A stretch of 64,000 bases of DNA. Source: a virus. This document shows positions 10,482 to 64,000 of the stretch, piece after piece (within the stretch, counting starts at the first letter, position 1; each line of letters opens with the position of its first letter). Made by a program: the position numbers and the translations under genes. The notes under the pieces are model-generated. The model was not told the origin of the DNA. It ran no database searches and saw only the letters and a program-made list of their open reading frames with translations. The stretch covers positions 221,573 to 285,572 of the IMG/VR virus record IMGVR_UViG_3300021520_000002; one strand, written 5' to 3'.

Positions 10482-10556
10482 TGGTGCCCAAGGTGAGAAT
10501 TGAACTCACGACCTAGTGTTTTAGAGGCACTCGCTCTACAACTGAGCTACTTAGGC
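10482..10556 (-). tRNA. tRNA with anticodon CUA (amber suppressor)
   Basis: A complete cloverleaf can be drawn on the minus strand: acceptor GCCTAAG / CTTGGGC (one G-U), D stem GCTC/GAGC, anticodon stem AGTGC/ACACT (four pairs plus a C-A mismatch at 31-39), loop CTCTAAA, five-base variable loop, T stem GTGAG/CTCAC with TTCAATT loop, discriminator A and encoded CCA. T33 fixes the anticodon as CTA, which reads UAG. The D loop has one G fewer than usual (AGTTGTA). The charging amino acid cannot be read reliably: A73 and G1-C72 do not match bacterial glutamine tRNA identity. Confidence 0.88.
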
Positions 10557-10569
10557 ACCGATTTTATTT

Positions 10570-10863
10570 TTAAAGTAACCTTAATTTAGAAAATATTTTT
10601 TCATTATCAACAGTAGTTGCTAATGATGTGATTTGATTTCCTATATCAGGTTCTTTAAATATACTATATTCAATACTTTTCATATCCAGCTTAAATATCC
10701 ATTTTTCTAATTCTTCTTCATCATTAACACCAAGATAAACTAATGTACCATTATCCCAAGATGTTTTATTATGAAGAAGATATTCAGCAACAGCATGACC
10801 AGATTGAACAGCTTGTTGGGCTATCGATAAATCACGCCGCGTTAGCACATAAAGCTTCTTCAT
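10570..10863 (-). CDS. peptidyl-tRNA hydrolase 2-like protein
   Basis: 97 residues from MKKLYVLTRRDLSIAQQAVQ. The pattern RDLSIAQQAVQSGHAV (10-25) matches the Pth2 N-terminal helix with its conserved Gln and His, and GNQITSLAT near the C-terminus matches the family's substrate loop. Pth2 frees tRNA from stalled peptidyl-tRNAs. Slightly shorter than the usual 115-120 residues. It sits just upstream of the suppressor tRNA, so both may be translation-related functions. The start overlaps the upstream gene by 32 nt. Confidence 0.75.
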   Translation of the reverse strand: MKKLYVLTRRDLSIAQQAVQSGHAVAEYLLHNKTSWDNGTLVYLGVNDEEELEKWIFKLDMKSIEYSIFKEPDIGNQITSLATTVDNEKIFSKLRLL

Positions 10864-11140
10864 ATCTTCTGGTCCATTCTTCTTTAATTTTTGTAATGTA
10901 TTTTTCATTAGCTGGATGATTTTCAGATGGTGTTTCAATCTGTTCTCTTGTTTTTCCTCTCAGTTCACATCTTGCAATGTGCCGATGACGAAATTCGTAT
11001 TGAAGATTATTAAGTTTATATTGTACTTCCCAACCTTTATTATTTGTTCTATAAGCTTCACTTCTTTCAATTTTTACATTATGAATATCTAAAGCTTTTT
11101 GTTTCATTTCTTCTTTAATTTCTTGATATACTAGATTCAT
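10832..11140 (-). CDS. hypothetical protein
   Basis: A 102-residue, highly charged, mainly helical protein (MNLVYQEIKEEMKQKALDIH...). Good ribosome site (GGAG). Ends TGA inside the Pth2-like gene. Function unknown. Confidence 0.65.
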   Translation of the reverse strand: MNLVYQEIKEEMKQKALDIHNVKIERSEAYRTNNKGWEVQYKLNNLQYEFRHRHIARCELRGKTREQIETPSENHPANEKYITKIKEEWTRRYEEALCANAA

Positions 11141-11860: not shown

Positions 11861-12652
11861 TTAATAATTAGCTATTATAGCTTTTGCTGAATGTGCATGA
11901 ATAGATTCATCATTAACAACTTCAACTTTAAACTTTAAAATATCTTTAACTTGTGATAGTTTATTATAACATTCACGAGCTATATCTTCAACAAATTTAG
12001 AATTTTCATACATCTTTTCTGTAACTTCTTTTTCATCAGGACGTTTTAATACTGAATAAATTTCACAAGATGATGATTCTTCGGCAATTTTAACTAAATC
12101 TTCAATCCAAATAAATGCATCTTCTTTAGCTTCACAAATAATTTTTATTCTACTTTTTTGATTATGTGCTGATATCTTACTAATTTCTTTACTACATGGA
12201 CAACTTGAAGTAGCAATAGTTTCAACACTTAATCTGAACATATGACCTTTTGCTGTTTTAATTATATTAAACCAAATTTCATATGGTAATATTCCAGGTT
12301 CAAAACTTATTGGTGCGTGCTTAGTTAGAAAATAAGGAAAATAATAACCAAGATCACACAAATCTGCTTCTGTGGATCTTCTTATATTTTCTGCAATTTT
12401 AATCATTAATTTACTACTTAATTGTTCTTTTGCAAATTTCATTAAACCAATAGGTATTCTACTCATAGATATACCTTTAATATCTGGTGCAAGATCAACA
12501 AAACAACTAATATTAGCTACACTATGTTGAACTCCCCCATCTTTTTGTGATATGAATATCGGCAATTTAAAATCAGTTATACCCACTCTATTAATTGAAA
12601 TTTTATGAATAGGTTCTTGTTCATTCTGAATATCTGGTAATTTTTTGTTCAC
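11861..12652 (-). CDS. folE2: GTP cyclohydrolase I, FolE2 (type IB) family
   Basis: 263 residues with a GTG start after AAGGAG. HSVANISCFVDL (43-54), GISMSRIP (60-67), and ATSSCPCSKEIS with a nearby AHNQKSR (147-168) are the hallmarks of FolE2, including the CPC cysteines used for metal or nucleotide binding. FolE2 makes dihydroneopterin triphosphate from GTP, the first step for folate and for 7-deazaguanine (preQ0) synthesis. In phages it may feed either base hypermodification or the folate needed by the thymidylate-synthase-like enzyme at 6322-7077. Confidence 0.93.
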   Translation of the reverse strand: MNKKLPDIQNEQEPIHKISINRVGITDFKLPIFISQKDGGVQHSVANISCFVDLAPDIKGISMSRIPIGLMKFAKEQLSSKLMIKIAENIRRSTEADLCDLGYYFPYFLTKHAPISFEPGILPYEIWFNIIKTAKGHMFRLSVETIATSSCPCSKEISKISAHNQKSRIKIICEAKEDAFIWIEDLVKIAEESSSCEIYSVLKRPDEKEVTEKMYENSKFVEDIARECYNKLSQVKDILKFKVEVVNDESIHAHSAKAIIANY

Positions 12653-13029: not shown

Positions 13030-13542
13030 TTATTTCTCCTCTTTTAATCTAATATGTTCATCCATAATTTTTTCAGAATAAATTCTTCCATTATAACTTG
13101 TTTTCTCTCCTAAAGCTTTAACTAAAAAATCTTCTACATATTTTTGAATACCTGGTTTGCTACTTTCTCTGTTACCGGCAACATTTAACACTTCAATTTT
13201 GTTCCATTCAATCCATCTTTTAAAAGCTTCTTCTATTGGATTGATTATATATGGTTTTCCTAATTTCTTACATGTTCCTAAAGTTAATTTAGCTCCAGGA
13301 CTATTTACATCTCCAAACCAAAGAGTACCTTGAGAATTTTTTACATTTTCAATAGTTCTTGGTTTATACTGCCAATCAGAATGTTCTACTAATCCAAAAT
13401 CTTTAAGTGTTTGATTAGGTCCTATATCTGTTCTATATCCTTTTGGTGCGGTTCCCCCAGTTTCAATTCCCAGTTTTTTACCAGCAAGAAGACCTCCAAA
13501 ATCACCACCAGTTTGACCACCTGAGATTATTTTTCTAATCAT
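13030..13542 (-). CDS. SLOG / putative molybdenum-carrier-like protein
   Basis: 170 residues from MIRKIISGGQTGGDFGG, the ATG that follows GGAG. IISGGQTGGDFGGL...GIETGGTAPKGYRTD (residues 4-36) is the nucleotide-binding P-loop-like region of the SLOG superfamily member annotated in databases as putative molybdenum carrier. NVKNSQGTLWFG and LTLGTCKKLGKPYIIN continue the Rossmann-like fold. Phages often carry it; its substrate is not established, though SLOG proteins generally bind nucleotides. Confidence 0.8.
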   Translation of the reverse strand: MIRKIISGGQTGGDFGGLLAGKKLGIETGGTAPKGYRTDIGPNQTLKDFGLVEHSDWQYKPRTIENVKNSQGTLWFGDVNSPGAKLTLGTCKKLGKPYIINPIEEAFKRWIEWNKIEVLNVAGNRESSKPGIQKYVEDFLVKALGEKTSYNGRIYSEKIMDEHIRLKEEK

Positions 13543-13846
13543 TTTTTCTCCATTCAAATTGTAAAATTGTTAAATGTAATAAAGTTTCTAGTTTTAATTC
13601 AGTTTTAGTATTAAATTCTTTACTCTCTTTAATTTTTCTTACTAGAGCATTATGAGCATTAATATATTCTTCAATTGGTCCAAAATTTGTAATAAAATTT
13701 AAAGTTAAAATATCATCATTTTTAAGATGTGCATCTTTATAATTTGAATTGCTTATATTTTTCATTATTAATATTTTATTTTCTTCTATTTCAATATAAT
13801 CTTCTTTTATAATTTCTTTTAAAGAATTTAACGTTTGTACTTTCAC
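13535..13846 (-). CDS. hypothetical protein ending in TAG
   Basis: 103 residues, charged and helical, with a C-terminal leucine-rich segment (TELKLETLLHLTILQFEW). The TAG stop lies 5 nt inside the next gene. Weak ribosome site. Function unknown. Confidence 0.62.
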   Translation of the reverse strand: MKVQTLNSLKEIIKEDYIEIEENKILIMKNISNSNYKDAHLKNDDILTLNFITNFGPIEEYINAHNALVRKIKESKEFNTKTELKLETLLHLTILQFEWRKND

Positions 13847-15487: not shown

Positions 15488-17476
15488 TTACACTTGACCT
15501 AGCCAAATCTTTTCATAAATTGTTAATATTGGACTATCTATTACTTCTTCCATATCAAGTTCTATTTTCTCAACTGAATTTTTATTTGGTTGATATAAAA
15601 GACCTAATAATGGACTTATATAACTTGCTAATTGTTTATCACCAAGTTTGAATGTTGGAGTTTGACTTTGATTATATCTCCAAAATACTTTATTATCATA
15701 ATCTACTAGGAACATATTTGCAAATAACATTTCAATAAATGAACTGTAAACTGTTCCTACACTTAACATTAAAGTCATAAAATCTTGATAATATTCTTTT
15801 GGTGTTTTTGTTAATTTACTTTGTTGTTTTAACACATTTTTAACTTGATTCATAACAGATATAACATCTTCATTTTTTACTACTTTAGAATCAGCTCTGA
15901 ATGAAAGTTGATTAGTTTTATAATCAATATTCATTAATCCAGGTATATCAGATAAAATTTTATCTGTTAGAATATCTGGAAATTCATTAGTGTCAAAAGT
16001 TAGAATTGTTTGCTCATTAATTCTTTCAACATTAATCAAATGATCTCTAAAAAATTCTAAAACTTCTTTATTTTTTGGTAAATTTGCACCACCTGATACA
16101 TGAAAAGTTCGAAGGATTAATTGTGTTATCCTTTCGACCACACTTTGACCTGCAGTGATACCAACATACTTTGTTGGAAATTCTCTTGCACCAAAACATT
16201 TTCTACAAATTTTAAAATTTGGTTCTTCACAAGTTATTAAAGAACGAATATAGATTTTATTATTTATAAATTTTATAGCTTCTGAAAGAGTTAAAACTTT
16301 CCATTCAAGTTCAGTACTTTGTGGATCTCTATAATATTTTCCAACTAAAGTTTGTGCATGTTTCTGTGAAGTTACAATAATATCTAAATAATTTTCAGTT
16401 CCACAATCATCTGATTCTAGTTCCATGACCGAAAGTCCCATAACTATTGTTCTTTCAAGATACCCAGAATCTGGCGTCCATTTAGCCTTGTCCTGGATAC
16501 TTTTTCTTGTTCCTGGAGCGACTATAAAAAATTCTTCTTCTGTTAAACCTTCTAAAAGAGAGGTTTTAATTGGAATTGGAGTAATATTATTTTCCGCGTC
16601 AGCGCTATATCCGATCGAGATACAAGATCTTGCCAATTGTAATTTAGAAAATCTTGAACCTGATTTAAATAACTTATATAAATTTGATTCTTTATCAAAA
16701 TGTTTTAAACATCTTTCAACAAGAGATTCATTTATATAATAACCTAACATTATATTATCATTAGGTATTTGTTTAAGCAATCTAGTTGTTTCATCATCTT
16801 TAAGATCAACCATTTCTAAAACATCTAAACTTGGTGAATGCTTTGTAACTGATATGAAGAAGAATAGTTTCTTTTCAAGATCAGTTAATCGATCATAATA
16901 TTTTTTATTATCTTTTTCATTTTCAAGAATTAAACGACTAATCTCATTAGAATAATCTTTTTTAACACTTTTATTAATTATTATATTATTAAAACCACAC
17001 CATTTATTGAATAAACACATTCCATATGGTACTAGTTTATTTTTAAATTTAACGGCAGAATATAATTGATCATTCCATAATTCTATAGTTTCTGGAAGAT
17101 CATTAAGATCATCTATTTCTAATATAATTTTGGTTTTATCAAATTCTGTTCTTGTTAATACAAATGCAGCATACAAAGCTTCATATCTCACTGTTGATAA
17201 AAAATTGGAATTTTGATCATAATGAATTGTATTCATCCAAAATGCTTTCTGTTCCAGTTCTTTTAATGCATCAATATCATGAACAATATATATCGCACAT
17301 GTGTCTCCATCAAAATCTGCATTTAAAGCTTCAAGCATAAGCGGACTGATTTGAATTGAATCATTATCTCCATCCTCAATCGCTTCGATTAAAACTCCAA
17401 CACAACTATGACGCCATAATGAAGGTTGTCTATTAATAAATGCTATCCTTTTTAATTTATTTAAAGATTTGTTCAA
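15488..17476 (-). CDS. RNA polymerase beta-prime subunit, C-terminal half
   Basis: 662 residues, TTG start after GGAGGC. FINRQPSLWRHS (13-24) matches RpoC LNRAPTLHR, and NADFDGD (52-58) carries the three catalytic Asp residues that hold the active-site Mg (D54, D56, D58). Later blocks VAPGTRKSIQDKAKWTPDSGYL and GITAGQSVVERITQLILRTFHVSGG match the bridge-helix/trigger-loop region and the RpoC [21 protein letters not shown] segment. CEEPNFKICRKC keeps part of the second zinc site. The split from the N-terminal half falls just before the catalytic domain. Confidence 0.96.
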   Translation of the reverse strand: MNKSLNKLKRIAFINRQPSLWRHSCVGVLIEAIEDGDNDSIQISPLMLEALNADFDGDTCAIYIVHDIDALKELEQKAFWMNTIHYDQNSNFLSTVRYEALYAAFVLTRTEFDKTKIILEIDDLNDLPETIELWNDQLYSAVKFKNKLVPYGMCLFNKWCGFNNIIINKSVKKDYSNEISRLILENEKDNKKYYDRLTDLEKKLFFFISVTKHSPSLDVLEMVDLKDDETTRLLKQIPNDNIMLGYYINESLVERCLKHFDKESNLYKLFKSGSRFSKLQLARSCISIGYSADAENNITPIPIKTSLLEGLTEEEFFIVAPGTRKSIQDKAKWTPDSGYLERTIVMGLSVMELESDDCGTENYLDIIVTSQKHAQTLVGKYYRDPQSTELEWKVLTLSEAIKFINNKIYIRSLITCEEPNFKICRKCFGAREFPTKYVGITAGQSVVERITQLILRTFHVSGGANLPKNKEVLEFFRDHLINVERINEQTILTFDTNEFPDILTDKILSDIPGLMNIDYKTNQLSFRADSKVVKNEDVISVMNQVKNVLKQQSKLTKTPKEYYQDFMTLMLSVGTVYSSFIEMLFANMFLVDYDNKVFWRYNQSQTPTFKLGDKQLASYISPLLGLLYQPNKNSVEKIELDMEEVIDSPILTIYEKIWLGQV

Positions 17477-18316: not shown

Positions 18317-18619
18317 TTACTCCTTAACAACTAACTCTATAATTGTGATTTCTACTTCATAATCTTTTCCATCAATATATGTTAAATCGTGATCATCTTT
18401 TGGAGTTGTACATATTTTTAGAAACTCTTCCATATATTCTTTAGCTTTATCTTCAGATGTGAATATGAATTTACTTTTAATAACTGTCTTCTGTTCAAAA
18501 CAAGCTAATTGTCCACGAATACTGAGTTGATATAATTTAAGATCTTTAATATTATAAGTTGTTGTTTCAGAATATTTAAATAAACTATCAGGTTTTATAT
18601 TTGTTTTCTTCTTACTCAT
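18317..18619 (-). CDS. hypothetical protein between the beta-prime halves
   Basis: 100 residues from MSKKKTNIKPD, the ATG following GAGGAAG; it overlaps the end of the beta-prime N-terminal gene by 8 nt. Mixed alpha/beta with YLKLYQLSIRG-like strands and a C-terminal EVEITIIELVV strand. Function unknown. Confidence 0.65.
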   Translation of the reverse strand: MSKKKTNIKPDSLFKYSETTTYNIKDLKLYQLSIRGQLACFEQKTVIKSKFIFTSEDKAKEYMEEFLKICTTPKDDHDLTYIDGKDYEVEITIIELVVKE

Positions 18620-19802
18620 CTTCTTCCTCAATATTAATTTTTTTCATTCTAACTATTGTTGTTGCTAACAATTTTTCTTGTGGAACATCTTCAGCTGTGA
18701 AGTATTCAACAAATTCATCAAATAATTGTTTATTATCTTTATATTCTTGAGTAACAACAGTATGATATATTTGAAGATAAGTATATTCTGGATGTTTTTC
18801 TTGAATATAATTAGCAAAATAAGGTAACCACAATTTATATAAAATTTCTTTACTTACTTTAATTTTATATGGTGGTAAGCTTGGATTGATTGTAATTACA
18901 GATCTTGCCGAAAACTCAATAGTTTTACCAAGAACAGATGATCTTATAAGACCCCATTTTCCAGATATATTTTCAAATACTTTTTCATATACCTTATCAA
19001 CATAATATTGATATTTAGCGGTCATTCTATCATATTCCTGAATCATTTGTTCTACAATTTCATCATCTAATTGTTCTTTCATACTTTTGTTAATTCTTAA
19101 TAACCAATCTTCTTCTTTATCATCTTTAACACTTCTTGTTGAAGCATTAGATTTATTTAATTGAACTAAACTAATATAAGGTTTATTCACTTCTGTATAT
19201 CTAAAACTTTCAGGTTTATTTGGATCTCTTATTACCGGCCGAACTTCAGGAGGTAATACTTTTATTGTATCCATTATATAACCTTTATCAAATAATTCTT
19301 GAGCTACAGCAATATGCATATAGTCCGCTAAATATTTTAAACAAAGAATAAAACTATATATTCCTGTTATTCTTAATGGTATAATATACCATCCATTTAT
19401 TTTATTAATTGAATCAACAATTTTTAATTTAGTTGTGTCACCAGATAATGCAAGAAATCTTGATGTTGCAGCTGTTGCATCTGCTCTTCTTGGATTTAAT
19501 AAATGTTTATGTGTTCCAACTATTTTCTTAAAATACTTTGTTCTTTTTGTTGGTTTAATAACCGGAAAAATTAAATTTATTTTACCGAAAGTTGATAATC
19601 TTGATTCATTACTAATACACATTACTCCACATTTATCACAAATATTTCCTTGATCAAGAACTTTTACTGATAATTTACCACATTTACATGTAAAATCTTT
19701 TATTGGTCCAAATATACTTTCACTAAAAAGTCCATCTTCATCAAACTTATTCTGTTTGTTAAAGATCTTGGGACTTGTTACTTCGCCTCGGTACTGTCCC
19801 AA
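18612..19802 (-). CDS. RNA polymerase beta-prime subunit, N-terminal half
   Basis: 396 residues with a TTG start 7 nt after GGAGGCG. GEVTSPKIFNKQN...DGLFSESIFGPIKDF (6-37) is the RpoC N-terminal signature; Cys39, Cys41, Cys55 and Cys58 form the first zinc site. LGKTIEFSARSVITINPSLP near residues 285-305 matches the RpoC LGKRVDYSGRSVI segment that contacts DNA. It ends where the catalytic domain (next large gene) begins. Four small genes separate the two halves. Confidence 0.96.
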   Translation of the reverse strand: MGQYRGEVTSPKIFNKQNKFDEDGLFSESIFGPIKDFTCKCGKLSVKVLDQGNICDKCGVMCISNESRLSTFGKINLIFPVIKPTKRTKYFKKIVGTHKHLLNPRRADATAATSRFLALSGDTTKLKIVDSINKINGWYIIPLRITGIYSFILCLKYLADYMHIAVAQELFDKGYIMDTIKVLPPEVRPVIRDPNKPESFRYTEVNKPYISLVQLNKSNASTRSVKDDKEEDWLLRINKSMKEQLDDEIVEQMIQEYDRMTAKYQYYVDKVYEKVFENISGKWGLIRSSVLGKTIEFSARSVITINPSLPPYKIKVSKEILYKLWLPYFANYIQEKHPEYTYLQIYHTVVTQEYKDNKQLFDEFVEYFTAEDVPQEKLLATTIVRMKKINIEEEDE

Positions 19803-20691: not shown

Positions 20692-21078
20692 TTATATTTT
20701 AATTTTCAAACATGCCCTAGCTAGAGCTATAATATGTTTACAACCTGATGGTATATTAAATTCGTTTTTTTCTTTTGGTCTCTTGATAATTGATCTTAAG
20801 AAAGCTATAGCATTTATTAAACTACCAGCTTTAAATACAGCATTAGCAAATTCAAATTTAAAGCTTTCACAATTACATGTAACTTTTACAGAAGATTTAA
20901 GATTTATTTTATTATCATAAATTTCTATAATTTGTTCATATTTATCAGTTCTACTTTTTACTTCAATACCATATTCTGTTTTCTTCGGAATAATAGATAA
21001 TAATCTTATTTTATCAACAAGTTTTTCTCTATCTTTAAAGGCTGTTGGAAATCTAATAAAATCATTAAGTGTAAGCAA
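20692..21078 (-). CDS. SWIM-like zinc-motif protein
   Basis: 128 residues, TTG start 5 nt after GGAGG. CNCESF...GCKHIIAL (near residues 72-121) is the CxC...CxH pattern of a SWIM-type zinc site. Similar 'CNC...CKH' proteins occur in large myovirus structural regions. It is in frame with the PAAR gene upstream: only TAG GAG GTT ATA separates them. Independent initiation at TTG or amber read-through are both possible. Confidence 0.7.
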   Translation of the reverse strand: MLTLNDFIRFPTAFKDREKLVDKIRLLSIIPKKTEYGIEVKSRTDKYEQIIEIYDNKINLKSSVKVTCNCESFKFEFANAVFKAGSLINAIAFLRSIIKRPKEKNEFNIPSGCKHIIALARACLKIKI

Positions 21079-21087
21079 TATAACCTC

Positions 21088-21393
21088 CTATCCATTCGAC
21101 ATTACTGATCCTGCTGCTGTTATAATACTACCATTTATACATCCAGCAACAGTATCACCAAGTCGAGCTACACCAAGATTATTTGCCATTACAGTTGGAC
21201 TTGCAGATACTATAGTAGTAGAATGTCCACAGAAACCTATACCAATATCACCCATTCTAGCTTGTCCCATATTTTCAGTCATTACATTTGGACTTGCTGT
21301 AATTATTATTCCAGATGAACTTATACATGGTGGTTTAGCATGACAACAACAAACACCTATAAACATATCATTCATTCTTGCATTTCCTGGCAT
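21088..21393 (-). CDS. PAAR-repeat tail-tip protein
   Basis: 101 residues made of PAAR-type repeats: ARMNDMFIGVC, QARMGDIGIGFCGH, ARLGDTVAGCI, with a run of TASPNVMTENMG / SASPTVMANNLG strands. PAAR proteins cap the membrane-piercing spike of contractile tails (T4 gp5.4 type) and bind a metal at the tip. This supports a myovirus-like tail. Ends TAG, in frame with the following gene; the gene before it also ends TAG in frame. Confidence 0.9.
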   Translation of the reverse strand: MPGNARMNDMFIGVCCCHAKPPCISSSGIIITASPNVMTENMGQARMGDIGIGFCGHSTTIVSASPTVMANNLGVARLGDTVAGCINGSIITAAGSVMSNG

Positions 21394-21402
21394 AATTTCC
21401 TC

Positions 21403-22548
21403 CTAACCAATTAAGTACCAATATATTTTCCAACCATTTTCAACGAAAATCCAATCATAGGTCCATTTATCTCCAGTTTGTGTCCAATATCTTGTCCAAT
21501 CGGCACCAACTCCTGGCTCTGTTGCTGATGAAGATCTATGTTTAAGAATACAAGTATAAATATGATCACCATTGTAAAGAACTCTATCAATTTTATAAGA
21601 TTTATTAGTAATCCAATTATCATATAAAGTTACACCTGGTTCTGTTTGAGATGATGCTGTATGATTTCTTAAACATCTATAAACTAAATTATTACTTGCA
21701 TAAATTATATTATCAGTAATGTAAGCTGTTCCAGAAGTCCAATTACCATATAAATCAACACCTGGTTCATTTCTATTTGATGATGTATGATCTAATAAAC
21801 ACCCATAAACATGAGTAGACAAATATAATGCTTGTCCTTGACCATAAGCTGTAGCTAATATCCAATCACCATCATATAAACCAACATAAGTCCAACCAAA
21901 TTCTCTTAATATTTCTAATAAATACATAACAAATAATTGTTGATTTCTAGCATCAAATCCTGGAACTGGAGTTACTCTTGGGTGTGCGTTTGTCATATAA
22001 ATTGATCTAAGACCAAGACCAGAACCAAGACTATATCTAAATTCTTCCAAATTTGCCGTATCAGATGCATCTCCACCATCTATAAGAGCTTTTAAATCTA
22101 TATATCCATCTGCTATTTCTATTTCACCAGTTGTTGGATCTGGTGGAGGATCTGGATCTGGTGGTATTGTAGGTTCTGGTGGTGGAGTTGCCGATAAATC
22201 AAATAAAGATTCATAAAATGGAACACCAACAGTTAATATATCAGACCAATTTTCATATAAGCTTCTTATATCTTCACCAGCAATAAGTTCTGGAATTGGT
22301 GGAGCTTGAACTGGTAAATTCATACTGAATTTAATAGCTATATACCCATATAAAGGTAATAGAAAATCAGTCATTGAAGCTTTAACAGCACCAATCTTAT
22401 AACTATCATAAGAAGTTTGTAAATCTGTTAAAAATCCATTCATAATAGATAATAATTCTGGTTTATTTGTATAACTAGTTTCATTTATTCTTGTTGTCCA
22501 ATGACTTTGAGCTAAAGGTATCCATGTTGCGATCTGACGTAATAACAT
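21403..22548 (-). CDS. tail/baseplate protein with three carbohydrate-binding-like repeats
   Basis: 381 residues. The first half is unknown and ends in a Pro-rich linker (PPPEPTIPPDPDPPPDP, about 123-139). The C-terminal part has three copies of a module with Y-x-C-x3-H-[TR]-[SA]-S-x4-EPGV-x-x-x-x-W, resembling CBM5/12 chitin- or glycan-binding repeats. The same module recurs in the tail fibres at 43-64 kb, so this is probably a receptor-contacting tail component. TAG stop in frame with PAAR: TAG GAG GAA ATT ATG. Confidence 0.8.
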   Translation of the reverse strand: MLLRQIATWIPLAQSHWTTRINETSYTNKPELLSIMNGFLTDLQTSYDSYKIGAVKASMTDFLLPLYGYIAIKFSMNLPVQAPPIPELIAGEDIRSLYENWSDILTVGVPFYESLFDLSATPPPEPTIPPDPDPPPDPTTGEIEIADGYIDLKALIDGGDASDTANLEEFRYSLGSGLGLRSIYMTNAHPRVTPVPGFDARNQQLFVMYLLEILREFGWTYVGLYDGDWILATAYGQGQALYLSTHVYGCLLDHTSSNRNEPGVDLYGNWTSGTAYITDNIIYASNNLVYRCLRNHTASSQTEPGVTLYDNWITNKSYKIDRVLYNGDHIYTCILKHRSSSATEPGVGADWTRYWTQTGDKWTYDWIFVENGWKIYWYLIG

Positions 22549-55602: not shown

Positions 55603-58107
55603 ATGAACACTCCACCTGCTGGTGATGATTATAAAAAATTATTACAATATTTTAGTTCTTTAAAAGTATCAGCTCAAGATCAACCAGATTTAACAGTTAA
55701 AGTTTCTGGTGGTATATTTACTAAACAAACATCTAATGGTCTTGAATATATTAATTGTGTTGGTGGAATTTCCCCATCAGTGTCAACACCTGGGCATGGT
55801 AAATCACAAGTTGTTGTTATTACATTAGATGAATCTGGGAATATTGCATTAGTATATGGAATTGAAGAAGTTAGTGATAATCCATCTTTTCCAAACATTT
55901 CAGTACTAAGACTTCCTTTAGCATTTGTGGTTATAAAATCTAGTACTATAAGAATAACTGATGAAATGATTTATGATGTAAGATCTATTTTTAATTCAAG
56001 TCATATTCATAAAAGTTTAACAGATACTAGTGATTTTAATTGTCATCCTATTGATGCAATTACAGGTTTAACTCAAGCACTTATAGACATTCATGGCACA
56101 AGTGGAACTTCAGGTTCATCTGGAAGATCAGGTTCTTCTGGAACAAGTGGAAGATCTGGTTCTTCAGGCACATCTGGAAGTTCTGGTACAAGTGGTTCTT
56201 CAGGTACTTCAGCTTCAAGTGGAACATCAGGTCGTTCTGGTAGTAGTGGAACAAGTGGTTCAAGTGGGACAACAGGTTCTTCTGGAAGTTCTGGAACATC
56301 AGGTTCTTCAGGAAGATCTGGTTCTTCGGGTTCATCTGGTCTTTCTGGAACATCAGGTAGTTCTGGAACAAGTGGAAGATCTGGTTCTTCAGGTACATCT
56401 GGTAGTTCAGGATCGTCAGGAAGTGCAGGAACATCAGGTTCATCTTCTACATCTGGTACATCTGGTAGTTCAGGTTCATCTGGGTCAAGTGGTTCATCAG
56501 GAACAAGTGCTTCATCTGGAACATCAGGTTCTTCTGGAAGTTCAGGTACATCTGGGTCAAGTGGTACAAGTGGTTCATCAGGAAGTTCTGGTTCATCAGG
56601 TTCTTCTGGTAGTTCTGGTACTTCAGGATCATCAGGTACTTCAGGTTCTTCAGGTAGTTCAGGTTCAAGTGGAACATCACCTCCTGGATTCACATCTGGA
56701 ACAGATGGAACAAGTGGTTCAGATGGTACTTCAGGTAGTTCTGGAACAAGTGGGTCTTCAGGATCATCAGGTAGTTCAGGTTCAAGTGGTACATCACCTC
56801 CTGGATTTACATCTGGAACAGATGGAACTTCTGGAACATCTGGAAGTTCTGGTACAAGTGGTTCTTCAGGTCCTCCTGGAACATCAGGTTCTCCTGGAAC
56901 ATCAGGTAGTTCTGGTCCTGCTGGAACATCAGGTAGTTCTGGAACATCTGGTGCTGGTGGTGGTCTTTCAACAATTTGGATTGGTCAAGGAACTGGAACA
57001 TCAGGTGTTAAAATTTCAACAGCGGGAACACTTGGAACAGATGCAGATTCATATTTACATGTTTATAGAACAACTGCTCATCCAGCATATTCAGGAGTTT
57101 CTCGTGGTTGTATTCATGGTGAGTGGACAGCTAATCTTATTGCAGATTCAATTCCATCAGCTGTTAGAGGTTATATTAAAAACAATTCTAATAATACTGG
57201 TAATACAACATATGGACATATGATAGGTTCTTTTGGTTGGGTTGAAGATACTGCAAATGGTGATATTTACGGTCTTGGTGTTGAAGGAAGAGTTGATGCT
57301 GCTGGAAAAGCAATGATGTATAATGGTTTTGAAAGTCAGGTTACTTGGACTGGGGCATCTGGATCATTTGGTAATAATGGAGTTATTGGAGCACAAGGTG
57401 CTTATGGATTTCATGGTATAGTAGCAATACATAATAGTGGTGGAAATGCTATTGCTCCTGGTGGAAATGGTTTAGTATCATTAATTAGACTTGAAAAAGC
57501 AGATTGTTTAGCTAATCCATATGGAGTAGGTCCATATAGTTTTTGGGCAGTTAGTGGTACACCTGCTGGTGCTGCAGCCGCAGCCGCAGATCCAATGAGA
57601 TTAGATTGTAGTAATGGAACTATGGGAATTTTAATTGGCGCTGAATCAACAACACCATATATAAATCTTAGTAATGGAAGTAGTAATGCTTTAGGTGCAA
57701 GTGGATATGGTATAAGATATAGTGCTGGTGTAGTACAACTTAGAAATAGTGGTGGTTCTTGGGCAAATATAACATCAAGTTCTGATATTAATCTTAAAGA
57801 AAATATCACACCAATATCTAGTCAAATAGATGTTTTTGAAGCAGCAAAATCTATCAATGGTGTCTATTTTGATTGGAGAAAAGATATTGAATTTGCACAA
57901 GGTTATGGTGATAAAAGAACGATGGGTGTTTTAGCTCAAGAAGTTGAAAAAGTTTTGCCAGAACTTGTTAGTGAAATAGGTAATGGATATAAGTCTTTTA
58001 ATTATGATGGTTTAACAGCCTTTTTGTTAGAAGTTAATAAGAGACTTATTGATGAGTTAGAAGATTTAAGAACAGAAGTGAATTTGTTAAAGGACAAAAT
58101 AAAATAA
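55603..58107 (+). CDS. collagen-like tail fibre with S74 intramolecular chaperone (834 residues)
   Basis: Start after GGAGG. Residues 1-160 form a beta-rich N-terminal domain shared with the gene at 58987. Residues about 165-453 are Gly-X-Ser/Thr triplets (GTSGSSG...), a collagen-like triple helix that lacks most prolines. A second globular region follows. Residues about 727-834 (SDINLKENITPI...YDGLTAFLLEVNKRL) are a C-terminal S74 chaperone domain, which trims itself after helping trimerisation. Clearly a trimeric side fibre. Confidence 0.93.
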   Translation: MNTPPAGDDYKKLLQYFSSLKVSAQDQPDLTVKVSGGIFTKQTSNGLEYINCVGGISPSVSTPGHGKSQVVVITLDESGNIALVYGIEEVSDNPSFPNISVLRLPLAFVVIKSSTIRITDEMIYDVRSIFNSSHIHKSLTDTSDFNCHPIDAITGLTQALIDIHGTSGTSGSSGRSGSSGTSGRSGSSGTSGSSGTSGSSGTSASSGTSGRSGSSGTSGSSGTTGSSGSSGTSGSSGRSGSSGSSGLSGTSGSSGTSGRSGSSGTSGSSGSSGSAGTSGSSSTSGTSGSSGSSGSSGSSGTSASSGTSGSSGSSGTSGSSGTSGSSGSSGSSGSSGSSGTSGSSGTSGSSGSSGSSGTSPPGFTSGTDGTSGSDGTSGSSGTSGSSGSSGSSGSSGTSPPGFTSGTDGTSGTSGSSGTSGSSGPPGTSGSPGTSGSSGPAGTSGSSGTSGAGGGLSTIWIGQGTGTSGVKISTAGTLGTDADSYLHVYRTTAHPAYSGVSRGCIHGEWTANLIADSIPSAVRGYIKNNSNNTGNTTYGHMIGSFGWVEDTANGDIYGLGVEGRVDAAGKAMMYNGFESQVTWTGASGSFGNNGVIGAQGAYGFHGIVAIHNSGGNAIAPGGNGLVSLIRLEKADCLANPYGVGPYSFWAVSGTPAGAAAAAADPMRLDCSNGTMGILIGAESTTPYINLSNGSSNALGASGYGIRYSAGVVQLRNSGGSWANITSSSDINLKENITPISSQIDVFEAAKSINGVYFDWRKDIEFAQGYGDKRTMGVLAQEVEKVLPELVSEIGNGYKSFNYDGLTAFLLEVNKRLIDELEDLRTEVNLLKDKIK
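56095..56960 (+). repeat. collagen-like Gly-X-Ser/Thr repeat (first copy)
   Basis: About 290 codons of in-frame GTS/GSS/GRS triplets within the fibre gene at 55603. Long proline-rich frames seen on the opposite strand here are its mirror and are not genes. Confidence 0.9.
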
Positions 58108-58986: not shown

Positions 58987-61900
58987 ATGAATGTGCCACC
59001 TTATGGTGATGATAATAGACGAAAAAATAGCCATTTTAGTACCCTTAAAGTGTCGGCACAACAACAGCCAAACTTATCAGTAAGGGTTTCCCCAGGTGGA
59101 TTTTGGCACAATAGTGAATATGGCTTCACTTATTATGATTTTATTGGTGGTAGTACACCTGGTATTACACCACCAATTTCAGATGCTTATTGGGTAATTG
59201 TAGCTCTTAATGTTGTTAATGATCTCGTTGAAATTGAAACTATATATGGTCCAATTGCCCACCATTCACCACCTTTACCTCAAATTCCGATTGGAAGAAT
59301 ATCTCTTGCCGCTATCTATTTAGAGAGTACAGATCTCAAAATAACTGATGAAATGATTTATGATGTAAGAGCACTTTATCATACATTAGATGAATTAAAT
59401 GGTGAGGATGGAACATCGGGGAGTTCAGGTAGTAGTGGAAGATCAGGAACAAGTGGTTCTTCAGGTACAAGTGGAAGACAAGGTACTTCTGGTACTTCAT
59501 CAACATCTGTAACTTCGGGAACATCAGGAATAGGAACCTCTGGTACTTCTGGATCATCAGGAATTTCTGGAACATCAGGTCGTTCTGGTACTAGTGGAAC
59601 CTCGGCAACATCAGTAACTTCTGGAACATCAGGTAGAACAGGTTCTTCAGGTACATCCGGTTCTTCTGGTCGTTCTGGTACTTCAGGTCGTTCTGGAACA
59701 AGTGGAACATCTGGAAGTAGTGGTTCATCTGGAACTTCAGGAAAAAAAGGTGATGTAGGAACTTCTGGAACAGGTGGAACTTCAGGATCATCAGGTAGTT
59801 CAGGTAGTAGCGGTTCAAGTGGTAGTAGTGGTACTTCTGCAACATCAGTAACATCTGGAACTTCAGGTTCTAATGGTACTTCAGGGTCTTCTGGAACAAG
59901 TGGAAGCTCTGGAACAAGTGGTTCATCTGGTACAAGTGGAACTTCAGGTACATCTGGTTCTGATGGTTCTTCTGGTACATCTGGTAGTAGTGGAACAAGT
60001 GGAAGCTCTGGAACATCAGGAAGTTCAGGTACAAGTGGTTCTGATGGAACGTCTGGAACTTCAGGTTCTGATGGCACATCAGGTAGTTCTGGTACAAGCG
60101 GTATAGATGGATCATCTGGAACAAGTGGTATAGATGGCACATCAGGTACGTCAGGTTCTGATGGAACTTCAGGTAGCTCTGGATTATCAGGAAGTTCTGG
60201 TACATCTGGTTCTGATGGAACTTCTGGAAGTTCAGGTTCATCGGGTTCTGATGGTACATCTGGATCTTCAGGTAGTAGTGGAACTAGTGGAATAGATGGA
60301 ACATCTGGAACATCGGGTTCTGATGGAACTAGTGGTTCTTCAGGCACATCAGGATTTGGAACTTCAGGTAGTTCTGGAACAAGTGGTTCTGGAACATCAG
60401 GAAGTTCAGGCACAAGTGGTATAGATGGAACGTCTGGAACTTCAGGTTCTGATGGAACTTCAGGTAGCTCTGGATTATCAGGAAGTTCTGGAACATCAGG
60501 AAGTTCAGGTACAAGTGGAACTTCAGGTTCTGATGGTACTTCTGGGTCTTCTGGAACAAGTGGAAACTCTGGAACCTCAGGAAGTTCTGGTACAAGTGGT
60601 ATAGATGGAACGTCTGGAACTTCAGGTTCTGATGGTACTTCTGGGTCTTCTGGAACAAGTGGAAGCTCTGGAACTTCAGGTTCTGATGGTACTTCCGGGT
60701 CTTCTGGAACAAGTGGAAGTTCTGGTACATCAGGTAGTTCTGGTACAAGTGGTATAGATGGAACGTCTGGAACTTCAGGGTTTTCTGGAACAAGTGGAAG
60801 CTCTGGAACTAGTGGAATAGATGGTACATCAGGTTCATCTGGGACAAGCGGTTCAAGTGGAACATCAGGTAGTTCTGGAACAAGTGGAACTTCAGGTTCT
60901 GATGGTACTTCTGGATCTTCAGGAACTTCAGGTTCTGATGGTACAAGTGGAAGTTCTGGCACATCAGGTAGTTCAGGTACAAGTGGTACTTCTGGAACAT
61001 CTGGAAGTTCTGGTACAAGTGGTATAGATGGAACGTCTGGAACTTCAGGTTCTGATGGAACTTCTGGGTCTTCTGGAACAAGTGGGTCGAGTGGAACATC
61101 TGGTAGTTCTGGTTCATCTGGAAGTTCTGGTACAAGTGGTATAGATGGTACGTCTGGAACTTCAGGTTCTAATGGTACTTCAGGGTCTTCTGGAACAAGT
61201 GGAAGTTCTGGCACCAGTGGTACATCTGGATCTGATGGTACATCTGGATCTTCAGGTAGTTCTGGAACAAGTGGTAGTAGTGGAACGTCTGGAAGTTCTG
61301 GTACAAGTGGAACTTCAGGTTCTGATGGTACTTCCGGGTCTTCTGGAACGTCTGGAAGTTCTGGTACAAGTGGAACTTCAGGTTCTGATGGTATATCAGG
61401 GTCTTCTGGCACAAGTGGAAGTTCTGGAACATCAGGTAGTTCAGGTACAAGTGGTAGTAGTGGATCATCTGGTTCTGACGGTACAAGTGGGTCAAGTGGC
61501 ACATCAGGAAGTTCAGGTACGAGTGGACATAGTGGAACATCAGGATCTTCTGGAACAAGTGGAGAAGGTTTTGAATGGGTTGGAGCTTGGACACTTTCTG
61601 ATTCTTATGATTTAAATCAAATAGTTGAAGATGGTGGTAATTCATACATCTGTAAATTAGCAAATATAGCAACAGCAAATACTGAACCTGGTATTGGTGA
61701 TGATTGGGAAACATATTGGGATTTATTTGCTCATGGTGGTACAGGAACATCTGGTACATCAGGAAGTTCAGGTTCTGATGGAACTTCTGGGTCGAGTGGA
61801 ACATCTGGAAGTTCAGGTACTAGTGGTATAGATGGAACATCAGGTTCTAGTGGAACATCTGGTAGTTCAGGTACAAGTGGAAGTAGTGGAACATCTGGAA

Positions 61901-64000
61901 CATCAGGTTCTGATGGAACATCTGGTAGTTCTGGAACTTCAGGTTCTGATGGTACTTCAGGTTCTAGCGGTAGTAGTGGAACAAGTGGTAGTAGTGGAAC
62001 AAGTGGTAGTAGTGGAACAAGTGGTATAGATGGAACATCAGGGTCTAGTGGAACTTCAGGAAGTTCTGGAACTAGTGGAACTTCAGGTTCTGATGGAACA
62101 AGTGGCACGTCTGGTACAAGTGGTATAGATGGTACGTCTGGAACTTCAGGTTCTAATGGTACTTCAGGGTCTTCTGGAACAAGTGGAAGTTCTGGAACAA
62201 GTGGTTCATCTGGTACAAGTGGTTCATCTGGTACAAGTGGAACTTCAGGTACATCTGGTTCTGATGGTTCTTCTGGTACATCTGGTACATCTGGTAGTAG
62301 TGGAACAAGTGGGTCGAGTGGAACATCAGGAAGTTCAGGTACAAGTGGTTCTGATGGAACGTCTGGAACTTCAGGTTCTGATGGCACATCAGGTAGTTCT
62401 GGTACAAGCGGTATAGATGGATCATCTGGAACTTCAGGTTCTGATGGAACTTCTGGGTCTTCTGGAACAAGTGGGTCGAGTGGAACATCTGGTAGTTCTG
62501 GTACATCTGGAAGTTCTGGTACAAGTGGTATAGATGGAACGTCTGGTACTTCAGGGTCTTCTGGAACAAGTGGAAGCTCTGGAACATCTGGAAGTTCTGG
62601 TACAAGTGGTATAGATGGAACGTCTGGAACTTCAGGTTCTAATGGTACTTCAGGGTCTTCTGGAACAAGTGGAAGCTCTGGAACATCTGGAAGTTCTGGT
62701 ACAAGTGGTATAGATGGAACGTCTGGAACTTCAGGTTCTGATGGAACTTCTGGGTCTTCTGGAACAAGTGGGTCGAGTGGAACATCTGGTAGTTCTGGTT
62801 CATCTGGAAGTTCTGGTACAAGTGGTATAGATGGTACGTCTGGAACTTCAGGTTCTAATGGTACTTCAGGGTCTTCTGGAACAAGTGGAAGCTCTGGAAC
62901 ATCTGGAAGTTCTGGTACATCTGGAACTTCAGGTTCTGATGGAACCTCTGGGTCTTCTGGAACAAGTGGTGAAGGGACAGCTGGAACCTCTGGAAGTTCT
63001 GGAACATCTGGAGTAAGTGGAAGTTCTGGAAGTGATTATTTTTATCAATCTGGTAATGGTGATGATGGATATAGATATTCAAATAGTTTTGATAATACAT
63101 CATTATATGTTCAATTAGGAAAAGGCACTTCTAATGGTACCAGTGCATTTTTTAGATTTGTAAATGTGACAATTCCAAAAGGAGCAATAATATTATCTGC
63201 AATTTTAACTCTCACATCAACAACTGATGATTCATCTGACTTTATGCATTTAGATTATTTTTTTAATGATGCTGATGATGCAATTGCTCCTACGAATATT
63301 ACAGAACTTGATAATTTAGCTAAAACAACGAATATTCGTCAATGGGATTTTGATCATTTTGTAACAGATCAATCTTATGATTCTCCAGAACTTAAGACTA
63401 TTCTTCAAACAGTTATTAATAGAAATGGTTGGGAATCTGGTAATGCAGTAATAATAATGATGAATGATATTTCAAGTTCAGCAAATGCTGGAAGAAAAGT
63501 TTATTCGATTAGAGATGAAGAAGGTTATCAACCTGAATTATATGTATATTGGTATATGCCTTCTACAAGTGGAACCTCTGGAAGTTCAGGTACAAGTGGT
63601 ATTGGAACATCAGGTTCTGATGGAACCTCTGGAAGTTCTGGAACAAGTGGTAGTAGTGGAACGTCAGGAGCAGCTGGAGCGCCAGGTACATCTGGAACTT
63701 CAGGTTCTGATGGAACCTCTGGAAGTTCTGGAACAAGTGGTAGTAGTGGAACGTCAGGAGCAGCTGGAGCGCCAGGTACATCTGGAACTTCAGGTTCTGA
63801 TGGAACAAGTGGAACTTCAGGATCTGATGGAACTTCAGGATCTTCAGGAACATCTGGAGGGACTGGAACATCAGGAAGTTCTGGAACAAGTGGTAGTAGT
63901 GGAACGTCAGGAGCAGCTGGAGCGCCAGGTACATCTGGAACTTCAGGTTCTGATGGAACCTCTGGAAGTTCTGGAACAAGTGGTAGTAGTGGAACGTCAG
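58987..64000 (+). CDS. giant collagen-like tail fibre, incomplete at the window edge
   Basis: ATG at 58987 after GAGGGAGGT; open to the end of the window, at least 1,671 codons, no stop seen. Residues 1-138 are a paralogue of the start of the fibre at 55603 (MN.PP.GDD...LKVSAQ.QP.L.V.VS...[10 protein letters not shown]). Gly-X-Ser/Thr collagen-like repeats fill residues 139-858, about 918-1345 and from about 1526 onward. Two globular inserts lie between them: a carbohydrate-binding-like module (about 860-917) and a jelly-roll domain (about 1348-1525) with [16 protein letters not shown] and [17 protein letters not shown], resembling a secreted beta-sandwich carbohydrate-binding fold. Confidence 0.9.
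59407..61560 (+). repeat. collagen-like Gly-X-Ser/Thr repeat (second gene, main block)
   Basis: About 720 codons of Gly-X-Ser/Thr with recurring phrases such as [18 protein letters not shown]. Large stretches are nearly identical at DNA level, for example 60031-60122 and 62341-62432. Confidence 0.9.
61741..63030 (+). repeat. collagen-like Gly-X-Ser/Thr repeat (second gene, second block)
   Basis: About 430 codons after the carbohydrate-binding-like insert; several segments copy the first block almost exactly at DNA level. Confidence 0.88.
63622..64000 (+). repeat. 90-bp tandem repeat at the end of the window
   Basis: A 90-bp unit (from GGAACCTCTGGAAGTTCTGG through GCAGCTGGAGCGCC) repeats at 63622 and 63712, recurs at about 63865 and begins again at about 63955. 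It encodes [20 protein letters not shown]-type residues and is the only part of the repeat with Ala and Pro. Confidence 0.88.

Follow-up and report, generated by a model that had tools for sequence, protein, structure and literature searches.

Amber suppressor tRNAs (anticodon CUA) have been described in several phages that use the standard genetic code: XacN1 encodes two (PMC5852040), RsoM2USA one (PMC8504454), and they also occur in several Zeta crAss-like phages (PMC12386605). In the XacN1 study, read-through was sought only past terminal TAGs, and none was found (PMC5852040). For Agrobacterium phage Atu_ph07, the only suppressor reported reads UGA, and no connection between this suppressor and the PTH2-like genes of the phage was found in its description (PMC6102473). 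A search of the open-access literature revealed no account of a link between suppressor tRNAs and PTH2.

The window analysed here, a 64-kb stretch of giant-phage DNA, corresponds to the final part of a virus record of 285,572 bp. The locus under study comprises the following features:

10482..10556, minus strand: tRNA gene with anticodon CUA (reads UAG), identified by ARAGORN and Rfam RF00005
10570..10863, minus strand: PTH2-like (peptidyl-tRNA hydrolase 2) gene, 97 aa from its ATG, identified through phrog_1866 and relatives
10832..11140, minus strand: ORF with the motif FRHRHIARCELRGKTREQIE, overlapping the start of the PTH2-like gene by 32 nt in another frame

The segment 10482..10556 was confirmed as a genuine tRNA gene: both ARAGORN and Rfam called one tRNA at this position, with a score of 66.3 bits for RF00005 (gathering score, 29). 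ARAGORN calls the anticodon CUA that the initial annotation had derived from the loop CTCTAAA, and the gene is on the minus strand, which had been left unstated. The anticodon lies within a 7-nt loop, CUCUAAA, and the tRNA is predicted to decode UAG. Its sequence, GCCUAAG UA GCUC AGUUGUA GAGC G AGUGC CUCUAAA ACACU followed by AGGUC GUGAG UUCAAUU CUCAC CUUGGGC A CCA, shows the pair G1-C72, A73, a 5-nt variable loop and a gene-encoded CCA. The two irregularities pointed out previously are real, since the D loop (AGUUGUA) misses one of its two Gs and the 31-39 pair is C-A; the remaining stems are all paired, the T loop is canonical, and the RNAfold energy minimum is the cloverleaf with 31-39 unpaired. 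The acceptor stem and the beginning of the D arm match those in 10 of 10 cellular tRNA-Phe, but the variable loop is unlike that of tRNA-Phe, so this resemblance is a mere lead on the charged amino acid. A scan of the flanks for promoters and terminators revealed nothing above chance, and a nucleotide search against isolate phages gave no match. The label 'Pyl' given by ARAGORN is merely its name for the anticodon CUA. Beyond that anticodon, nothing points to a pyrrolysine tRNA, an identity with next to no probability: the layout is ordinary, with two bases between the acceptor and D stems and the short variable loop, and the tRNA-synt_2d domain (PF01409) was not found in the genome, so that the assignment is refuted unless the host supplies a PylS partner.

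TAG is a working stop in this genome, which uses the standard code. ORFs were scored across the record, in 20-kb stretches, by means of a codon model for which its long ORFs served as training set, and the 397 scored ORFs of the whole 285.6-kb record end in TAA (276), TGA (76) or TAG (45, or 11% of stops). The genes terminated by TAG include those for the terminase large subunit, the DNA topoisomerase II large subunit and a DNA polymerase fragment, as well as structural genes. No internal TAG was found in the 397 scored ORFs, two leftover candidates being antisense or intergenic, and a release-factor gene (PF00472) was not found in the genome. These data bear out the earlier statement that a CUA tRNA is present while TAG remains a stop; the use of TAG as a stop in the window holds as well, 13 scored ORFs ending in TAG there, as compared with the earlier count of at least 16 genes. 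Phages with such tRNAs frequently use code 15 (PMC11210395), and TAG might likewise have been reassigned to an amino acid (Gln in code 15), either genome-wide or in late genes. The ratio of ORF lengths with TAG open to those under code 11 was ~1.0 in this genome, in contrast with the published code-15 phage phAss-1, used as positive control, in which it reached 3.3 across the first 40 kb and peaked at 11.5 within an 8-kb stretch. Genes with internal TAG are lacking and the genes listed above end in this codon; reassignment was rejected and has a negligible chance of being correct.

The initial annotation had proposed partial suppression of stops, perhaps in late infection. Under such general suppression, read-through of TAG stops in the phage genes would yield C-terminally extended or fused structural proteins. 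Consistent with this proposal, 11 of the 45 TAG stops run in frame into the next gene, as in the following chain:

20692..22548, minus strand: three genes sharing a reading frame (21403-22548, 21088-21393 and 20692-21078), with a TAG within TAGGAGG as sole separator

The gene at 21088-21393 is PAAR-like, judged by sequence, and the chain would provide natural read-through reporters for the window tRNA. However, the rate of in-frame continuation is not clearly above that of TAA (49/276), and every one of the 11 continuations restarts with its own start codon no more than 6 codons on, nearly always with an SD-like site. A second stop within 10 codons was found after 53% of TAG, 62% of TAA and 71% of TGA stops (p=0.19), so that back-up stops are not enriched, and TAG is not depleted with regard to TGA. 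In addition, 15 of the 45 TAG stops sit within the TAGGAG ribosome site of the next gene. The relative G001 (~80% nucleotide identity) interchanges TAG and TAA freely: TAG is kept in six of nine orthologous stops and is TAA in the other three, and three TAA-to-TAG changes are observed in the reverse direction. Taken together, these results do not sustain general late suppression, which we consider improbable.

The linkage of CUA tRNAs to PTH2-like genes was analysed in other viruses. A pattern-based scan of IMG/VR yielded 86 stretches, among which ARAGORN called a CUA tRNA at 65 loci; no strong signature of TAG reassignment was observed in these stretches (largest ORF-length ratio, 1.31), short ones being liable to miss local reassignment. 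A phrog_1866 search was then applied to a further 50 viral contigs carrying a CUA tRNA and to 50 control contigs with a Lys tRNA. PTH2-like genes were present in 38/50 and 6/50 contigs, respectively, counts that overstate independence because many carriers are fragmentary and partly related, and a search with the Pfam PTH2 family was concordant (28/38 vs 7/50). In records of at least 130 kb, the gene was detected in 31 of 34 CUA contigs vs 4 of 18 controls (p=9e-7), and the 12 of 50 CUA contigs in which phrog_1866/PTH2 was not found were chiefly small ones. The PTH2-like gene lies less than 5 kb from the CUA tRNA in 30 contigs, vs 3.7 expected at random, and less than 1 kb from it in 20; all 30 nearby genes are on the strand of the tRNA. 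On this basis, we propose that a suppressor tRNA beside a PTH2-like gene constitutes a two-gene module of many large phages.

Most of these tRNA-adjacent genes carry an early in-frame stop, hereafter the lock, in the layout ATG, one to seven codons, TAG and PTH2 frame. The lock was present in 24/30 tRNA-adjacent PTH2 genes vs 1/30 distant copies of the same phages (p=7e-10). The locked proteins form 10 clusters at 50% identity, their leaders are diverse (M-K, M-C-L, M-T, M-R-S, M-L-T-N-S-F-L and others), and in nearly all of the genes the stretch from TAG to core lacks an ATG; in L247, one comes directly after the TAG. A scan blind to PTH2, looking for an SD site, ATG, stop and long frame, gave 27 TAG, 5 TAA and 1 TGA cases in the CUA loci, many of the TAG locks being PTH2-like, and 10 TAG, 15 TGA and 2 TAA cases in the Lys loci. 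In one locked group of seven members, 44 synonymous vs 21 non-synonymous differences were counted in the leader and 103 vs 90 in the part from lock to core, as opposed to 31 vs 181 when the group was read one base out of frame. These patterns indicate protein-like evolution, in the PTH2 frame, of the codons before and after the lock.

The codon at the lock corresponds to the anticodon of the suppressor. As predicted for the carrier of a locked PTH2 gene, G054, a member of the Lys control set, was found to have a CUA tRNA 2.6 kb away from that gene. Sinorhizobium phage Phosso combines a TAG lock with a CUA tRNA, and in the uncultured huge phages LR756500 and LR756501 a CUA tRNA lies no more than ~2.2 kb from a TAG lock. 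Agrobacterium phage Atu_ph07 (MF403008) has TGA at the lock position and a UCA tRNA far from the gene, and G051 has an in-frame TGA with a UCA tRNA 3.4 kb away. This match between lock codon and anticodon provides the strongest evidence that the tRNA may read the lock. Together with linkage and lock, it makes the unlocking of PTH2 the most probable task of the tRNA in the majority of carriers, and strong comparative evidence argues for such an opening in the other phages. Locked PTH2 genes appear truncated in current annotations, as the CDS of Phosso and Atu_ph07 begin inside the homologous region.

Two further arrangements were observed. In mycobacteriophage HyRo (L321 2977-3678), which has a laboratory host, the PTH2 gene opens with ATG-TAG-GTG and an unannotated CUA tRNA lies ~250 nt downstream; this gene was left out of the locked count because GTG can start. 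In LR745208 (L320 6001-6487), a PTH2-like gene is followed after ~80 nt by a UUA tRNA, which reads UAA; this pair may be an ochre form of the module.

In the window, only 13 nt separate the tRNA from the end of the PTH2-like gene, which lies upstream of it and shares its strand; this neighbour, the main clue to function, had been overlooked. It is the sole PTH2-like gene of the genome. It matches phrog_1866 (E=4e-9 and 6.7e-10, 37 bits). For PF01981 it scores 18.9 bits (E=0.0018) and falls short of the curated threshold (23 bits), so that the PTH2 assignment leans on PHROG and on relatives. The protein shows 60% identity to its homologue in G003/L256, which is unlocked and 25 nt from a CUA tRNA, 51% to the amber-locked G006/L257 and 44% to the XacN1 homologue; a single-sequence AlphaFold model gave no usable fold (pLDDT 41). 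The overlap with the ORF at 10832..11140 has the same layout in L256, and in L264 and L265 this type of ORF is fused in frame to PTH2. Unlike most relatives, the window gene shows no in-frame stop near its start, that is, no early stop matching the tRNA. A scan for other locked genes in this genome found none; the sole TAG candidate, at 21102, was rejected, as it terminates the PAAR-like gene and a TTG start comes next. With a same-strand PTH2-like neighbour well within 5 kb and no lock, the window represents the module without its lock, and the role of its tRNA is deduced by kinship, no locked gene having been found in the genome. A FolE2-type GTP cyclohydrolase gene (11861-12652) and a circularly permuted YpsA (SLOG) gene (13030-13557) are also found near the tRNA, both perhaps linked to modified nucleotides.

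Regarding the rest of the record, eight further tRNAs are encoded elsewhere, all on the same strand as the CUA tRNA, and split genes for a multisubunit RNA polymerase are present in the window. Both the beta-prime subunit of RNA polymerase and the DNA polymerase come in pieces (window 15488-17476 and 18612-19802; L011:3080-4858; L009:9974-12079; L008:11285-12154), the two DNA polymerase pieces (phrog_262 positions 94-563 and 561-841) being ~18 kb apart. Very long collagen-like repeats in tail-fibre-like proteins (window 55603-58107 and 58987-64000) produce long antisense ORFs. In G001, the terminase large subunit gene is split by ~1 kb of intron-like DNA (L106:8287-9282), and pieces resembling this DNA were found at L107:5313-5552, L006:9097-9321 and L011:16476-16649. 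G001 (87.8 kb), the only close relative, does not span the tRNA locus, and no relative emerged from scans that used the RNA polymerase (P0007), the DNA polymerase or the PTH2-like protein as query.

The C-A at 31-39 had been taken as a reason to doubt the activity of the tRNA. In a survey of viral tRNAs of the same body, thinned to <88% similarity, the 31-39 pair was broken in 21/47 CUA tRNAs vs 0/83 Lys(UUU) and 3/92 others, and C31-A39 specifically occurred in 12/47 viral CUA tRNAs vs 0/175 controls; the inner anticodon-stem pairs 28-30 of the viral CUA tRNAs vary yet keep pairing. On these counts, C31-A39 is a recurrent trait of viral CUA tRNAs and not decay, and the doubt was misplaced. 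In yeast, tRNA-Gln(CUG) acquires efficient amber suppression through an A-C at 31-39 (sup70-65; PMC3664417), and bacterial tRNAs whose anticodon stem is reduced to 4 bp by a break at 27-43 promote read-through (PMC13092985). An alternative is that the window tRNA is a decaying or neutral passenger, a degenerate copy with no present role. The short D loop, the mismatch itself, the absence of a lock in the neighbouring gene and the lack of a close relative spanning the locus are all compatible with a passenger; against it stand the otherwise intact stems, the canonical T loop and encoded CCA, the recurrence of C31-A39, which includes the two tRNAs of XacN1, and the same PTH2-adjacent placement in unrelated phages. 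We regard a passenger as unlikely.

We consider it fairly probable that the window tRNA is a genuine UAG-decoding tRNA and half of a suppressor-tRNA/PTH2 module, present here in its unlocked form. In locked relatives, the host release factor would stop PTH2 synthesis after a few residues unless the phage tRNA reads UAG. As the early stop would block PTH2 when the tRNA is absent, the tRNA would act as the key to one locked gene and not as the agent of a new code. PTH2 enzymes split peptidyl-tRNA, so an unlocked PTH2 probably limits suppression or cleans up after it, a limiting or repairing role suggested by the enzyme family. A self-limiting loop could result, in which suppression opens PTH2 and PTH2 curbs suppression. 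What can be read directly from the sequences is that the tRNA exists, that the code is standard, and that linkage, lock and lock-anticodon match are present; from them we infer read-through in vivo and the feedback. The window tRNA itself probably gives weak UAG suppression beside a constitutive PTH2. More generally, it appears likely that large phages carry a stop-gated enzyme switch in which a suppressor tRNA keys PTH2 (UAG/CUA or UGA/UCA), with feedback that retains the suppressor without a change of code, the window being the unlocked form.

For Zeta crAss-like phages, it has been suggested that idle suppressor tRNAs serve in an attack on host translation or defence (PMC12386605). Applied to this locus, the suppressor would extend host proteins ending in UAG and PTH2 would shield phage translation. 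The retention of idle suppressors by diverged phages (PMC12386605) agrees with such an attack, and an unlocked module is compatible with it, but the locked PTH2 genes are left unexplained, and we hold it to be quite unlikely. The stop-gated switch offers a target for the suppressor tRNAs long reported without one in standard-code phages (PMC5852040, PMC12386605), since linkage and lock name one PTH2-like gene. If true, this would be an example from nature of a dedicated, virus-encoded tRNA gating a single gene.

Among known systems, the jumbo phage XacN1 (PMC5852040, AP018399) is similar in its standard code and in having C31-A39 in each of its two CUA tRNAs. In front of its PTH2-like ORF364 lies SD-ATG-AAG-TAG, with an in-frame ATG five codons past the TAG, and its tRNAs are distant from the PTH2 genes, unlike the window tRNA. 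Atu_ph07 (PMC6102473, MF403008) likewise combines a suppressor tRNA, the standard code and PTH2-like genes, in an opal version with a UCA tRNA and a TGA lock. The 'non-functioning' suppressors of Zeta crAss-like phages (PMC12386605) are also CUA tRNAs without reassignment, although some of those phages use TAG rarely and have another stop shortly after it, whereas here it makes up 11% of stops and no back-up is seen. CUA tRNAs are also encoded by code-15 phages, phAss-1 (PMC10607447) among them, but there many genes have internal TAG and the tRNA bodies are different. The 4-bp-stem tRNAs (PMC13092985) and sup70-65 (PMC3664417) share with the phage tRNA a broken anticodon-stem pair and are associated with stop read-through; their anticodons are CCA and CUG, respectively, whereas that of the phage tRNA already matches UAG, and the 4-bp-stem tRNAs break 27-43 instead of 31-39. 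Finally, in prfB, encoding RF2 (PMC12421855), an early in-frame stop likewise ties synthesis to the termination machinery; prfB is opened by frameshift, whereas the phage genes are apparently opened by a phage-encoded suppressor tRNA.
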